Shown here: positions 5,651 through 48,536 of the stretch, in pieces
How the letters are laid out: every line of letters starts with the position of its first letter
Position numbering within the stretch: position 1 is the first letter of the stretch
Source of the DNA: Solibacillus sp. R5-41
Lineage (GTDB): Bacteria > Bacillota > Bacilli > Bacillales_A > Planococcaceae
NCBI RefSeq assembly: GCF_002736105.1
Contig: NZ_CP024123.1
Location: forward strand, 1,170,001-1,234,000
DNA: 64,000 nucleotides
Direction: 5' to 3'
The notes under the pieces: model-generated
Databases searched by the model: none
Told to the model about the DNA's origin: nothing
Seen by the model: the letters and a program-made list of their open reading frames with translations, nothing else
Made by a program: the position numbers and the translations under genes

Positions 5651-5689
5651 GGCAACAGCATAAAGATACACAATATATAGTAAAAATAC

Positions 5690-5850
5690 TTGATAGGTTC
5701 TACAACATGTAGATTAAAAGGGAAATTAGTGAAAAACTAATGCTGTCCCCGCAACTGTAATGCTGACGATGATTTCATAATCCACTGCGAATAAGCGGGA
5801 AGGGAAATCAAAGAATGAAGCAAAGCCAGGAGACCTGCCAATTTAAGTAT
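5690..5850 (+). ncRNA. Cobalamin (adenosylcobalamin) riboswitch
   Basis: The conserved blocks of the B12 riboswitch appear in order: AAAAGGGAA, then GTGAAAA, the CTGTCCCCGCAACTGTAA-type core (5743-5760), GCGAATAAGCGGGAAGG (5787-5803 region) and the B12-box-like AAGCCAGGAGACCTGCC (5823-5839). This is a strong, textbook match. It lies downstream of the cob operon and upstream of the ribonucleotide reductase genes, on the same strand, so it controls the latter. The element is followed by a long expression platform ending in a terminator. Confidence 0.95.
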
Positions 5851-5935
5851 ACGACGCATTTCTTCGGGGGCTAGGAAATGGAATAGAGCGATTTATTTCC
5901 TAGGCAATAAATTCTCTTTCCATTTCTAATTGTAG

Positions 5936-20743: not shown

Positions 20744-20777
20744 GGAGGTGAATCCCTCAATGTGAGGGAACATATTG
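20744..20777 (+). promoter_or_regulatory. SD - hairpin - TTG leader of the first CNNM gene
   Basis: GGAGGTGA (20744-20751) is followed by a 7-bp stem TCCCTCA (20753-20759)/TGAGGGA (20763-20769) with a 3-base loop, then five bases and the TTG at 20775. The linear SD-to-start distance is 23 bases; with the hairpin folded the effective gap is about 6. The same layout with different stem sequences occurs at 22104-22137 and 47920-47960. Confidence 0.75.
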
Positions 20778-22103: not shown

Positions 22104-22137
22104 GGAGGTGAATCCCTTTAACTAAGGGAATCTATTG
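22104..22137 (+). promoter_or_regulatory. SD - hairpin - TTG leader of the second CNNM gene
   Basis: GGAGGTGA (22104-22111), then stem TCCCTT (22113-22118)/AAGGGA (22124-22129) with a 5-base loop, five bases, then TTG at 22135. Same geometry as the leader at 20744 but with a different loop and inner stem. Confidence 0.7.
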
Positions 22138-23196
22138 GACGGAACAATTATTTTAAACTTAGCATTAATCGCATTATTTATTTTACTAACTGCATTTTTT
22201 GTAGGTGCAGAGTTTGCGATTTTAAAAGTACGTATGTCACGAATTGACCAGCTTATATCTGAAGGAAATAAAAAGGCAATTATTGCAAAGAAAGTAACAC
22301 AGAATCTTGACTATTACTTATCAGCATGTCAATTAGGAATTACAGTTACAGCGCTTATTCTAGGTGCGCTTGGTGAGCCGACAGTTGAGAAAATATTAGC
22401 ACCTGTTTTTGATTATTTAAATTTAGGTGAAACAGTTTCTACAGCATTGTCTTATGCGATTGCGCTATCGGTAGTCACGTTTTTACACGTAGTACTTGGC
22501 GAATTAATGCCAAAAACATTAGCAATACAATATGCAGATAAAATGACACTTCTATTAGCGCCTCCACTCTATTGGTTCGGACAAGTGTCAAAGCCTTTTA
22601 TTGCAGTGTTAAATGGTTCAGCGCAACTTTTATTAAAAGGGTTTGGTGTAAAGCCCGCGGGACATGATGAGGTATATTCTGAAGAGGAACTAAAGTTGAT
22701 TGTGACGCAAAGCTATGAAGGCGGCGAAATTAATCAAACGGAGCTTGCCTATTTAGAAAATATCTTTGCCTTTGATTCACGTCAATTAAAGGATATTATG
22801 ATTCCACGCTCAAAGATGGTGATGCTAGAGAAGCAACAAACACTTGAGCAAATGATAGCCGTAATCGAAGAATTTGAATATACACGATATCCCGTCATTG
22901 ATGTTACGAAAAAGAAGAATGATGTGATTGGATTTATTAACACGAAGGAAATGTTAACGGATATTGCTGTGGGTCGTTCGAATGATCGTACAGCTTTTAT
23001 TCATGACATCCTACGCTTTAAACATTCAACAGCAATTAAAGAGGTTTTCTTAAAAATGCAGCAATCGCATAAACACATGGGCGTAGTAACAGATGGCAAA
23101 GGTGCCATCATCGGACTTGTGACAATGGAAGATATTTTATCGGAAATCGTTGGGGAAATTCAAGATGATGGAGATATCGTCTTCACGACATCGTGA
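22135..23196 (+). CDS. CNNM/CorC-family membrane transport protein, paralogue 2, without C-terminal domain
   Basis: 353 residues. The CNNM membrane domain (AFFVGAEFAILKVRMSRIDQ, SACQLGITVTALILGA, VVLGELMPKTLAIQ) and both CBS domains are present, ending at LVTMEDILSEIVGEIQDDGD. The CorC/HlyC C-terminal domain of about 85 residues found in paralogue 1 is absent; the stop is followed at once by a strong terminator, so this is a settled short form or an old truncation. It is clearly a tandem duplicate of paralogue 1 that has diverged. Starts at TTG behind the SD-hairpin leader. Likely co-transcribed with paralogue 1. Confidence 0.88.
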   Translation: MDGTIILNLALIALFILLTAFFVGAEFAILKVRMSRIDQLISEGNKKAIIAKKVTQNLDYYLSACQLGITVTALILGALGEPTVEKILAPVFDYLNLGETVSTALSYAIALSVVTFLHVVLGELMPKTLAIQYADKMTLLLAPPLYWFGQVSKPFIAVLNGSAQLLLKGFGVKPAGHDEVYSEEELKLIVTQSYEGGEINQTELAYLENIFAFDSRQLKDIMIPRSKMVMLEKQQTLEQMIAVIEEFEYTRYPVIDVTKKKNDVIGFINTKEMLTDIAVGRSNDRTAFIHDILRFKHSTAIKEVFLKMQQSHKHMGVVTDGKGAIIGLVTMEDILSEIVGEIQDDGDIVFTTS

Positions 23197-36832: not shown

Positions 36833-36847
36833 CCTGCACGATGCAGG
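36833..36847 (+). repeat. Small hairpin between transporter genes
   Basis: CCTGCA CGA TGCAGG, 15 bases, in the 179-base gap after tcyA. No T-run follows. It may protect or process the tcyA message and so set a higher level of the binding protein than of the permease, a common arrangement. Confidence 0.35.
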
Positions 36848-36965
36848 TCAGTTAGCCGTTGTCACATGGATGCGACGGACATAGGCAAACATCCTGTGCG
36901 AGCACAATTCTAAAACCTAACGCAATTAAGCCGAAGCATAATTGAAAGAAAGGAAGTGGTAATCA

Positions 36966-46596: not shown

Positions 46597-47922
46597 TTAC
46601 GCTTTTTCTGTAACTTCCATTGCAACTAATTTTTTAATTTCTAAATATTGAATTTGGTGACCATCGATTTCTCTTATTTTAAATTCATAGCCTTCATGAA
46701 TGTAAGAATCTTCAATGTTTAAGTCTTGCATATTAGAAAAATACCAACCACCGATTGTGTCAATATTAGGATCTTCTAATTCAAGTTGTAAAAGTTTGGA
46801 GATGTCATCCAATAAAGCTTTTGAAGAGACAATGTAATGGTCCTCCTCAACTTTGCGGATTTCCGGAATTTCATCATCATCAAATTCATCGCGAATTTCA
46901 CCGACAAGCTCTTCTAAAATATCCTCAACTGTCACCATACCACTTGTACCGCCGTATTCATCTAAAAGAATCGCAATATGAATGCGTTTCTTTTGCATAA
47001 TTTGTAGTAAATTTTGAATTGGCGTCGTTTCAATTGTCCGAATAACAGGGTTAATAAAATCAGTTAACATAAAGGTTTCAGGTTGAATGCGATTATTCAT
47101 ACCGAGTGTTAAAAAATCTTTAATATTTAAGAAACCTAAAATATTATCACGGTCGCCATCATAAACAGGGTAACGTGTATAACGTTCCTCTGAAATTTGT
47201 GTTAATACTTCCTCAAAAGATGCGTGAATCTCAAAACCAACAATATCTGTACGAGGTACCATAATTTCACGAGCAATTTTATCATCAAATTCAAATACAT
47301 TATTCACATATTTTAATTCGTTCATATTAATCTCACCCGATTTATAGCTCTCTGAAAGTAATAAACGTAATTCTTCTTCTGTATGAGAAATTTCATGTTC
47401 GCTTGCAGGTTGCATACCTAAAGCTTTTAATAATAGACGGGATGAGCCATTTAATAACCAAATTAATGGGAACATGATTTTATAGAAAAACTGAATTGGC
47501 TTAGAAAATAAAAGCGTTACAGCCTCTGCTTTTTGAATCGCAATCGTTTTTGGTGCTAATTCTCCAACAACTACGTGGAAAAATGTAGCTAAGAAAAAGG
47601 CTCCACCAATTGTGAACCAATGAATATAATCAGTTGGAATACCTATTGTGTCGAATAATGGGTGGAGAATGAATTCAAAAGTCGATTCTCCAACCATACC
47701 GATTCCAAGTGCGGTTACCGTAATACCTAATTGGCAGGCTGATAAATACTCATCCAGATGAGTTGTTACATTTTTAGCGGCTAATGAGCCAGTTTTACCT
47801 TCAGCAACGAGCTGATCAATACGAGATTGACGCACCTTTACAATAGCGAATTCAGTCGCTACGAAAAATGCGGTTAAAGCGATTAACATCGTGAAAATCG
47901 TTAAGTTTATAATTGTGGTCAA
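46597..47922 (-). CDS. CNNM/CorC-family membrane transport protein, paralogue 3
   Basis: 441 residues with the same three parts as paralogue 1: CNNM membrane domain (AFFVATEFAIVKVRQSRIDQ, SACQLGITVTALGIG, VVVGELAPKTIAIQ), two CBS domains (MVPRTDIVGF, MVTVEDILEELVGEI) and the C-terminal CorC/HlyC domain. Probably an ion (Mg2+-type) exporter or a regulator of one. TTG start at 47922, behind an SD-hairpin leader like those of the two paralogues at 20775 and 22135. A MerR-family gene lies directly upstream on the same strand; its stop codon overlaps the SD. Confidence 0.9.
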   Translation of the reverse strand: MTTIINLTIFTMLIALTAFFVATEFAIVKVRQSRIDQLVAEGKTGSLAAKNVTTHLDEYLSACQLGITVTALGIGMVGESTFEFILHPLFDTIGIPTDYIHWFTIGGAFFLATFFHVVVGELAPKTIAIQKAEAVTLLFSKPIQFFYKIMFPLIWLLNGSSRLLLKALGMQPASEHEISHTEEELRLLLSESYKSGEINMNELKYVNNVFEFDDKIAREIMVPRTDIVGFEIHASFEEVLTQISEERYTRYPVYDGDRDNILGFLNIKDFLTLGMNNRIQPETFMLTDFINPVIRTIETTPIQNLLQIMQKKRIHIAILLDEYGGTSGMVTVEDILEELVGEIRDEFDDDEIPEIRKVEEDHYIVSSKALLDDISKLLQLELEDPNIDTIGGWYFSNMQDLNIEDSYIHEGYEFKIREIDGHQIQYLEIKKLVAMEVTEKA

Positions 47923-47960
47923 ACATACGTTCTACTCTCGAAGTAGAACGTTCACCTCCT
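47920..47960 (-). promoter_or_regulatory. SD - hairpin - TTG leader of the third CNNM gene
   Basis: On the minus strand: AGGAGGTGA (47960-47952), then a perfect 10-bp stem ACGTTCTACT (47951-47942)/AGTAGAACGT (47936-47927) with a 5-base loop, four bases, and TTG at 47922-47920. The linear SD-to-start gap is 29 bases. The stem sequence has nothing in common with the two other leaders, yet the geometry is the same. Confidence 0.8.
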
Positions 47961-48354
47961 AGTTATTTAAAATTAATAATAGTGATTGCATAAGTGCTAC
48001 ACTTTCGGGAGACACTTTTTTCTTTAATTTTTGCTTTTCATTGTCATCTAATTGTTCCATAAGCATAGCGACATCTTTTTCAAGTTTGCGCATTTGTAGT
48101 CGAATGTCTTGAACATCTATTTCCTCATGTATCATTGTTGCTGGAGCCAATAAGGAATGAATTTCTTCGAGGCATTTCCCTCGTTTTTTTTGCGCTTCAA
48201 TCCAATGAATTCGTTCAATCATCGCACAGTCGTAGTAGCGATAATTTGATGCGGAGCGTTCCACTGTAAGCAGTCCTAAATTAGTATAGTAGTCAATTGT
48301 TCGCTTTGTTACCCCTGATGCAGAGGCAAGCTCACCAATTTTTAGTTTCTCGAT
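47959..48354 (-). CDS. MerR-family regulator with apparent ATC start
   Basis: 131 residues. The N-terminal winged helix reads (I/M)EKLKIGELASASGVTKRT, then IDYYTNLGLLTVERSASNYR and YYD, the usual MerR DNA-binding part, followed by a long coiled-coil helix (LQMRKLEKDVAMLMEQLDD) and a short end without effector-binding Cys. No ATG, GTG or TTG exists at the family start; the frame opens after a TGA with TTA TTT GGG ATC GAG, and ATC at 48354 is at the right residue, with GAGGTG ten bases upstream. An internal ATG at 48264 would delete the DNA-binding helix. Co-directional with, and just upstream of, the third CNNM gene. Confidence 0.75.
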   Translation of the reverse strand: MEKLKIGELASASGVTKRTIDYYTNLGLLTVERSASNYRYYDCAMIERIHWIEAQKKRGKCLEEIHSLLAPATMIHEEIDVQDIRLQMRKLEKDVAMLMEQLDDNEKQKLKKKVSPESVALMQSLLLILNN

Positions 48355-48536
48355 CCCAAATAATCACCTCAAACTGTCACGTTATAGTTTTAAGGATAAA
48401 GTAAAGAATGTCTTTTGTAAAATATTTACGCACGATTTTATGGATTTTTATTAATCAAGGTGTCAGGATTAGTACCGTCTAACGATTAGAAAATGTTACT
48501 ATATATGGACAGAAGCAATTTTGGGGAGTGATTTGT

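Follow-up and report, generated by a model that had tools for sequence, protein, structure and literature searches.

The window analysed here, a 64,000-nucleotide stretch of the Solibacillus sp. R5-41 genome, contains a transporter gene whose TTG start codon is separated from its Shine-Dalgarno sequence (SD) by a perfect hairpin. This arrangement raised the question of how initiation works at such a site and what the hairpin contributes to it. On the minus strand, positions 47960-47920 read AGGAGGTGA, ACGTTCTACT, TCGAG, AGTAGAACGT, ATGT and TTG in that order (Table 1). The 5′ arm ACGTTCTACT occupied 47951-47942, the loop 47941-47937 and the 3′ arm AGTAGAACGT 47936-47927. An earlier note on this DNA had described a perfect 10-bp stem, a 5-base loop, four bases and TTG, and the description was exact on re-reading of the minus strand. 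Together with the adjacent TGA (47952-47954), AGGAGG forms what we take to be a 9-nt match to the anti-SD. The stop codon TAG of the upstream MerR frame (47961-47959) has AG in common with AGGAGG, so the overlap of SD and stop codon was present as the note had it. A start further upstream in the same frame was excluded because an in-frame TAG lies inside the 3′ arm of the hairpin. By itself, the hairpin had a predicted free energy of -12.7 kcal/mol at 37 °C.

The gene behind this leader comprised 441 codons and encoded CNNM, CBS and CorC_HlyC domains. Solved structures related to its protein include ones named CorC and CNNM. The CNNM membrane domain and the CBS domains were both found, which places the protein in the CNNM/CorC (MpfA-type) group. 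Its putative function is Mg2+ export, an activity that the literature reports or proposes for related proteins.

Table 1. Features of the copy-3 leader, its neighbourhood and the two other leaders within the window (positions are those of the window).
Feature	Position	Strand	Basis
Palindrome AAACTATAACGTGACAGTTT just upstream of the MerR SD	48371..48390	-	Similar sequence in many relatives
MerR-family regulator upstream; stop TAG overlaps the CNNM SD	47959..48359	-	Domain search, sequence
Shine-Dalgarno sequence AGGAGG	47955..47960	-	GGAGGTG invariant in the relatives' alignments
Hairpin: 10-bp stem ACGTTCTACT/AGTAGAACGT, loop TCGAG	47927..47951	-	Sequence, folding, covariation
ATGT, 4-nt gap preceding the start	47923..47926	-	Sequence
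CNNM-CBS-CorC_HlyC gene (copy 3), TTG start 47922-47920	46597..47922	-	Domain search
Copy 1 leader: GGAGG-TGAA-7-bp hairpin-ACATA-TTG (TTG at 20775)	20744..20777	+	Sequence
Copy 2 leader: GGAGG-TGAA-6-bp hairpin-ATCTA-TTG (TTG at 22135)	22104..22137	+	Sequence

All four CNNM genes of the Solibacillus genome were preceded by the series SD, hairpin and TTG. Three such genes had been counted before, here called copies 1 to 3; the fourth (L004, at G000:C1:3681137) was laid out alike, its hairpin being longer and internally looped. The leaders at 20744 and 22104 showed the same order of parts, as had been claimed, and their stems, TCCCTCA/TGAGGGA in copy 1 and TCCCTT/AAGGGA in copy 2, were indeed unlike that of copy 3. 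The 3′ arm of copy 1 contains GAGGGA, which is SD-like if unpaired, and that of copy 2 is AAGGGA. The protein of copy 2 (22135-23196) matched CNNM and CBS domains with no CorC_HlyC match, and its gene still kept the hairpin leader.

Folding energy was unusual in copy 3, where the leader folded at -15.9 kcal/mol (z -2.2 to -2.5), and ordinary in copies 1 and 2 (z -1.3 and -0.3), so a single sequence proves little. A covariance model built from nine leaders (R1), run on 92 of the 189 loci from CNNM searches, was too specific to its own orthologues and missed other stems; a sample of genome stretches was therefore used instead. This background comprised the window, L004 and 40 further stretches, together 867,579 bases with 770 open reading frames (ORFs) of at least 80 codons. 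A compact SD-hairpin stood at the first start of three of the 770 ORFs, all of them CNNM genes; the fourth CNNM gene escaped the scan because of its long loop. Five more matches lay inside ORFs, at codons 6 to 49. A compact hairpin was present in 62 of 72 distinct spacers, a fraction conditional on their preselection as detector matches, compared with 743 of 5112 arm-swapped and 1125 of 14400 dinucleotide-shuffled ones. The copy-3 layout is neither a product of chance nor unique. Across the window, no Rfam model matched the leaders when the gathering score was applied, and at E values up to 10 the matches near them were implausible; a known Rfam element was rejected as an explanation. Elsewhere in the window, Rfam identified a cobalamin riboswitch at 5678-5857 (113 bits) and a Bacillaceae-1 RNA at 36833-36900 on the minus strand (51 bits).

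The hairpin leader was widespread among relatives within the Bacilli. In the family sample, SD, hairpin and NTG were recognised by eye in 29 of 30 loci, the exception (L009) being an ATG behind an ordinary SD. A further sample drawn at the level of the order contained only the same family and added 18 of 18 loci; the loci of both samples were the best-scoring ones, mostly one per genome. Loss of the hairpin in close relatives that keep the gene, which the earlier note had named as evidence against its reading, was not seen, and the inspected relatives of copy 3 retained it. Among the matches listed above the cut-off in the class sample, 67 of 116 CNNM genes in 42 of 55 genomes had the hairpin, according to a hand-made list in which short or weak-SD hairpins (L128, L142, L146) were counted as present and L056 and L112 may be one gene split over two contig ends. 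The other 49 genes had none, and some of these start at TTG behind an ordinary SD. L118, L120, L133 and L141 are Bacilli CNNM genes of this kind, with a TTG or GTG start behind an ordinary SD and no hairpin; weak starts may be more general in the CNNM family. In other classes of the Bacillota, the hairpin was accepted in none of the 28 best-scoring loci. It was also absent from L059 and L097, which were read close to a contig edge. The 80 named loci included hairpin leaders from Lysinibacillus, Cytobacillus, Neobacillus, Bacillus haynesii, Staphylococcus, Sporolactobacillus and Carnobacterium, and from some, not all, Paenibacillus; none was seen in the Clostridium, Selenomonas and Sporomusa loci among them. 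Start codons of the 105 detector-positive hairpin leaders were TTG in 99, GTG in four and ATG in two.

Paralogues differed in one genus, whose leaders matched named Staphylococcus records. There, the hairpin preceded 28 of 28 copies of mpfA length, with TTG in frame in 27, and was seen by eye in none of the 20 shorter, mpfB-like copies among the shorter matches listed. The hairpin-bearing copies were about 105 codons longer than the others, which agrees with the 103-residue difference stated for the S. aureus genes SA0657 (mpfA) and SA0780 (mpfB) (PMC5122736). In one staphylococcal mpfA-type locus (L324), SD, hairpin and TTG were intact and a run of ten T put the TTG out of the gene frame; the run is either a record error or a variable tract.

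Detection combined a program with inspection. A first, loose detector was replaced by a stricter one owing to false matches, and matches of the stricter one were still rejected by eye: four of 28 outside the Bacilli (L088, L089, L103, L110), several within the class (including L117, L122, L127, L144, L159, L168, L182, L185 and L186), L009 in the family, and the mpfB-like L346, L351 and L354, which were internal starts. An in-frame stop in the hairpin was discarded as a defining feature; with 57 of 94 distinct leaders, as against 35 and 40 in the other frames, it is enriched and not universal.

Stem sequences differed between leaders and the spacing on either side of the stem was held within narrow preferences. 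Scanning of 189 loci (L001-L189) gave 71 compact leaders with 21-42 nt between SD and start. The gap after GGAGG on the 5′ side had its mode at 4 nt (37 of 71), and the gap before the start was 6 nt in 30 and 5 nt in 21. The main SD and the TTG lay outside the stem in all 71. Over 94 distinct leaders, the linear distance from SD to start was 34.5 ± 8.9 nt (21-57) and the summed gaps were 9.8 ± 2.1 nt, with 9-11 nt in 63 leaders. Since the detector admitted summed gaps of 4-14 nt only and shuffled spacers gave 8.2 ± 2.7 nt, the evidence in this measure is the peak and not a narrow spread. In ordinary genes here, GGAGG ended 7-8 nt from the start in 103 of 182 cases and at most 12 nt from it in 178, in a count where the choice of start favoured 8.

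Pairing was examined in copy 3 and 18 chosen relatives, aligned blind to structure. Standard pairs made up 90.5% of the pair cells, and shifting the partner column by 1 to 3 positions reduced pairing to 34-48%. Cells changed on both sides numbered 24, compared with 7.0 ± 2.1 in shuffles, and the covariation score was matched by none of 500 shuffles. The number of pairs with two-sided changes (81 of 500 shuffles) and of pair types (182 of 500) showed no excess over shuffles in this set. Seven core pairs were never broken; broken cells were confined to the outermost and innermost pairs, and the outermost pair was open in 12 of the 19 leaders. A nine-leader set gave the same covariation picture, with one measure not above shuffles. 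Stems were misaligned by MAFFT in a set of 38 mixed leaders, and that alignment was kept out of the pair counts. In ensemble predictions, the stem was the predicted structure, with a median probability of 0.95 for the three outer pairs, which fell below 0.2 in 13 of 106 leaders. Predicted accessibility was moderate (medians 0.34 for the SD and 0.40 for the start), and predicted hairpin stability had a median of -11.0 kcal/mol, ranging from -6.7 to -16.4 kcal/mol in the four Solibacillus copies. Judged from these alignments, the stem is maintained by compensatory change.

The two arms of the stem were not equivalent. At the six outer positions, the 5′ arm was 17% purine and the 3′ arm 83% across the 94 distinct leaders. 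The 3′ arm was the purine-richer and the 5′ arm pyrimidine-rich in 93 of 94 leaders, and in 57 of the 58 that lack CCC in the 5′ arm. The purine-rich 3′ arm occupies the usual position of an SD. An SD core, GGAG or GAGG, stood on the start side in 28 of 94 leaders, compared with 6.1 ± 2.3 in mononucleotide shuffles, a weaker purine run in 44, and neither in 22. Copies 1 and 2 were among the leaders with an SD-like sequence on the start side; copies 3 and 4 had none, and the tested relatives of copy 3 had no 4-nt core there. With arm polarity fixed in this way, the stems are not arbitrary. The earlier argument for selection on structure, made from conserved geometry with unrelated stems, thus stands as regards compensatory changes and the conserved gaps on both sides, with the qualification that the stem sequence is not wholly free.

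We consider it probable that the hairpin is a structural spacer within the ribosome-binding site and is required for initiation. A strong SD that ends 21-57 nt before the start would be too distant to act linearly. If the folded hairpin is looped out, about 4 nt would remain after the SD and 5-6 nt before the start, a path from SD to TTG of about 9-10 nt that would allow one 30S subunit to hold both. This presumes that the subunit accepts the folded hairpin, and folding would then be expected to raise initiation, the site being ON when folded. Our confidence was lowered by the discovery of the arm polarity, which is not predicted by a pure spacer model. The lack of a nearer SD was also dropped as a general argument for the spacer, being true of copies 3 and 4 and not of the 94 leaders as a whole. 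The polarity might do no more than prevent a second SD register in the 5′ arm. Regulation may not be involved at all: pairing and gaps would persist without it because loss of pairing would be harmful once the hairpin is in place.

A serious rival is a standby site whose second SD is masked. The 30S subunit would be parked by the upstream SD, which is open, while the hairpin is closed and, on opening, the purine-rich 3′ arm would pair with 16S rRNA, the pyrimidine-rich 5′ arm serving as its mask. The near-universal arm bias and the excess of start-side cores, with weaker runs in a further 44 leaders, speak for it. Against it stand the leaders without any purine run, copies 3 and 4 included, the missing 4-nt core in the tested copy-3 relatives, the predicted stabilities, which make spontaneous opening rare, and the other possible reason for 5′ pyrimidines given above; on balance, we hold it to be unlikely. 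Much less probable is a hairpin that simply inhibits initiation or senses temperature. Inhibition by stable hairpins in initiation regions is common (examples in PMC3014915), but the stem includes neither the main SD nor TTG in any of the compact leaders, and the four Solibacillus hairpins were still predicted at -2.1 to -3.9 kcal/mol at 70 °C. With hairpins predicted to be this stable, temperature or Mg2+ alone is unlikely to be the switch.

Proximity to other genes and gene products suggested further explanations. The earlier note had proposed, as a possible switch, that ribosomes finishing the upstream MerR gene disturb the hairpin; termination there would open or reset it. Stop codon and SD did overlap in 23 of 29 MerR-linked loci, the upstream frames tested being MerR in seven of seven. 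As a general function, the switch did not hold up: among 72 detector-positive hairpin loci with 1.5 kb of upstream sequence, an ORF (at least 80 codons from ATG, GTG or TTG, a test that could miss frames without a canonical start) ended at most 60 nt before the SD in only 26, leaving 46 without a nearby upstream ORF, and copies 1 and 4 had none. Coupling is accordingly a very unlikely explanation of the hairpin; it may add to copy-3 expression. Binding of a protein or of a nuclease, or a role in mRNA stability, is hardly more convincing. It would suit the report that mutation of the S. aureus DEAD-box helicase gene cshB raises mpfA mRNA under every condition tried, most strongly at 25 °C and in RPMI (PMC5122736), but apart from the purine/pyrimidine bias the paralogues have neither loop nor stem sequence in common, and such a role would not account for the fixed spacing to SD and start. 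That the perfect inverted repeat beside the MerR gene is a DNA palindrome acting as operator of the MerR protein is the least probable reading and close to negligible, with an identical layout in copies that lack MerR and a separate palindrome preceding the MerR gene.

This separate palindrome, AAACTATAACGTGACAGTTT, is the probable MerR operator, to judge from its position and recurrence. Two copies of a similar motif precede the CNNM gene at L005, a locus with no upstream ORF found close by. The MerR gene itself had an irregular beginning. Before its helix-turn-helix, the MerR frame contained no in-frame ATG, GTG or TTG. The start placed by the SD was TTG at 48359-48357 on the minus strand, followed by GGA and one base out of frame (-1; region 48354-48370). 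The comparison loci were L358-L412. All 30 family loci had NTG-GGA with the MerR frame at -1 (29 recognised by script, L384 by eye), and in 22 of the 29 no in-frame start lay between NTG-GGA and the conserved IGEL motif, seven having one. NTG-GGR was present in 23 of 25 class loci (including L389); L392 had an in-frame GTG and L404 lacked the pattern. A TTG, GTG or ATG three codons before the Ile, a possible alternative start, was also in frame in 11 of the 23. A GAN codon lies four codons upstream of the Ile. Across 21 distinct sequences from the family, its variation was almost confined to the third position as read in the MerR frame, and this frame is therefore already coding at that point.

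Judged from these reading frames, the MerR gene thus appears to depend on a conserved -1 frameshift at its second codon. With the SD a short way upstream, the glycyl-tRNA at codon 2 would slip by -1, leaving GGR and pairing with the overlapping GGG. Where relatives have an ATG at the stop of the tiny frame of 4-5 codons, reinitiation after that frame is plausible; in L385-L387 an in-frame ATG of MerR adjoins or overlaps the stop of this NTG-GGA frame (e.g. TAATG). As the sole explanation it was rejected, such an ATG being present in only seven of 29 family loci. A non-standard start codon is the other rival. The text available from a review on frameshifting (PMC5009743) made no mention of MerR.

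If any regulator of the hairpin exists, a CshB-type DEAD-box helicase is the most plausible one. MpfA and MpfB of S. aureus and B. subtilis belong to the same CNNM-CBS protein family (PMC5122736, PMC6711546, PMC8844918). Loss of mpfA was reported to relieve in part the slow growth of the cshB mutant, and the effect of CshB on mpfA was called possibly indirect by its authors (PMC5122736, PMC6711546). A change of the mpfB start from GUG to AUG, or a mutation of the initiator tRNA, relieved the Mg2+ sensitivity of an mpfA mutant (PMC6711546); because of this relief by the mpfB start change, start strength in the MpfA/MpfB family matters in vivo. The word 'hairpin' did not occur in the available text of PMC5122736 and PMC6711546, and no MpfA leader element was described there or in that of PMC8844918. 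The link between CshB and a hairpin in S. aureus relies on the match of the genus sample to Staphylococcus records and is to that extent provisional.

It is conceivable, though doubtful as a joint proposal, that CshB unwinds a hairpin that is ON when folded and so lowers the exporter, and that the MerR slip at codon 2 ties exporter supply to the state of the ribosome. Helicase loss or cold would keep the hairpin folded, MpfA would rise and Mg2+ would be drained, while better ribosome cover would raise mpfA mRNA. For the MerR slip, the ribosome state would itself be Mg2+-dependent. If true, the CshB part would explain the overexpression of mpfA, the cold sensitivity of cshB mutants and the benefit of losing mpfA. 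The hairpin would offer a concrete candidate target for the unexplained link between CshB and mpfA.

Known leader systems share parts of this architecture. RNA thermometers and leaders that sequester the SD likewise have a short hairpin in the initiation region; they pair the SD or the start, whereas the main SD and start of the CNNM leaders lie outside the stem. Ribosome standby on structured initiation regions uses a single-stranded landing site beside a stable hairpin. Such a site adjoins a stable hairpin in the CNNM leaders too, with the differences that it is itself a near-perfect SD and that the main start is outside the hairpin. These leaders could separate a structural spacer from a standby site experimentally, as many stems with one geometry and one polarity form natural replicates for the handling of structure between SD and start by the 30S subunit. 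Predictors that assume linear spacing easily misjudge the starts of these genes. In open-licence full texts, a search found no report of a hairpin in CNNM leaders and no experiment on such leaders, a weak negative, nor was a 'DUF21 RNA motif' found in the open-licence literature searched.

The closest parallel is provided by two genes of phage T4. In gene 38, a structure reduces the spacing between SD and AUG from 22 to 5 nt and in gene 25 from 27 to 11 nt, and initiation falls when mutations destabilise the structure (PMC3014915). In these split, 'accommodated' sites, as in the CNNM leaders, the structure lies wholly between a distant SD and the start and makes the spacing workable, and the gene 25 site, like that of copy 3, is situated at a gene junction (PMC3014915). 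Three marks of a T4-type split ribosome-binding site were found here, a distant SD, an intervening structure whose gaps sum to a workable spacing, and compensatory change; a further mark, the lack of another SD at ordinary distance, was seen in copies 3 and 4, with a 4-nt core in 28 and a weaker purine run in 44 of the 94 leaders. Bridging by a hairpin is an established principle in T4; what the literature searched did not show is its chromosomal use by a single family across many Bacilli, with fixed arm polarity. If the structural spacer is true, many Bacilli regularly use a layout known from two T4 genes in one of their chromosomal transporter families. The T4 sites differ in their AUG start and in belonging to phage genes, and the gene 25 layout is limited to close T-even phages (PMC3014915). 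The CNNM leaders, by comparison, start mostly at TTG, belong to one chromosomal transporter family with several paralogues per genome, and differ in their stems while keeping the pyrimidine/purine polarity of the arms.
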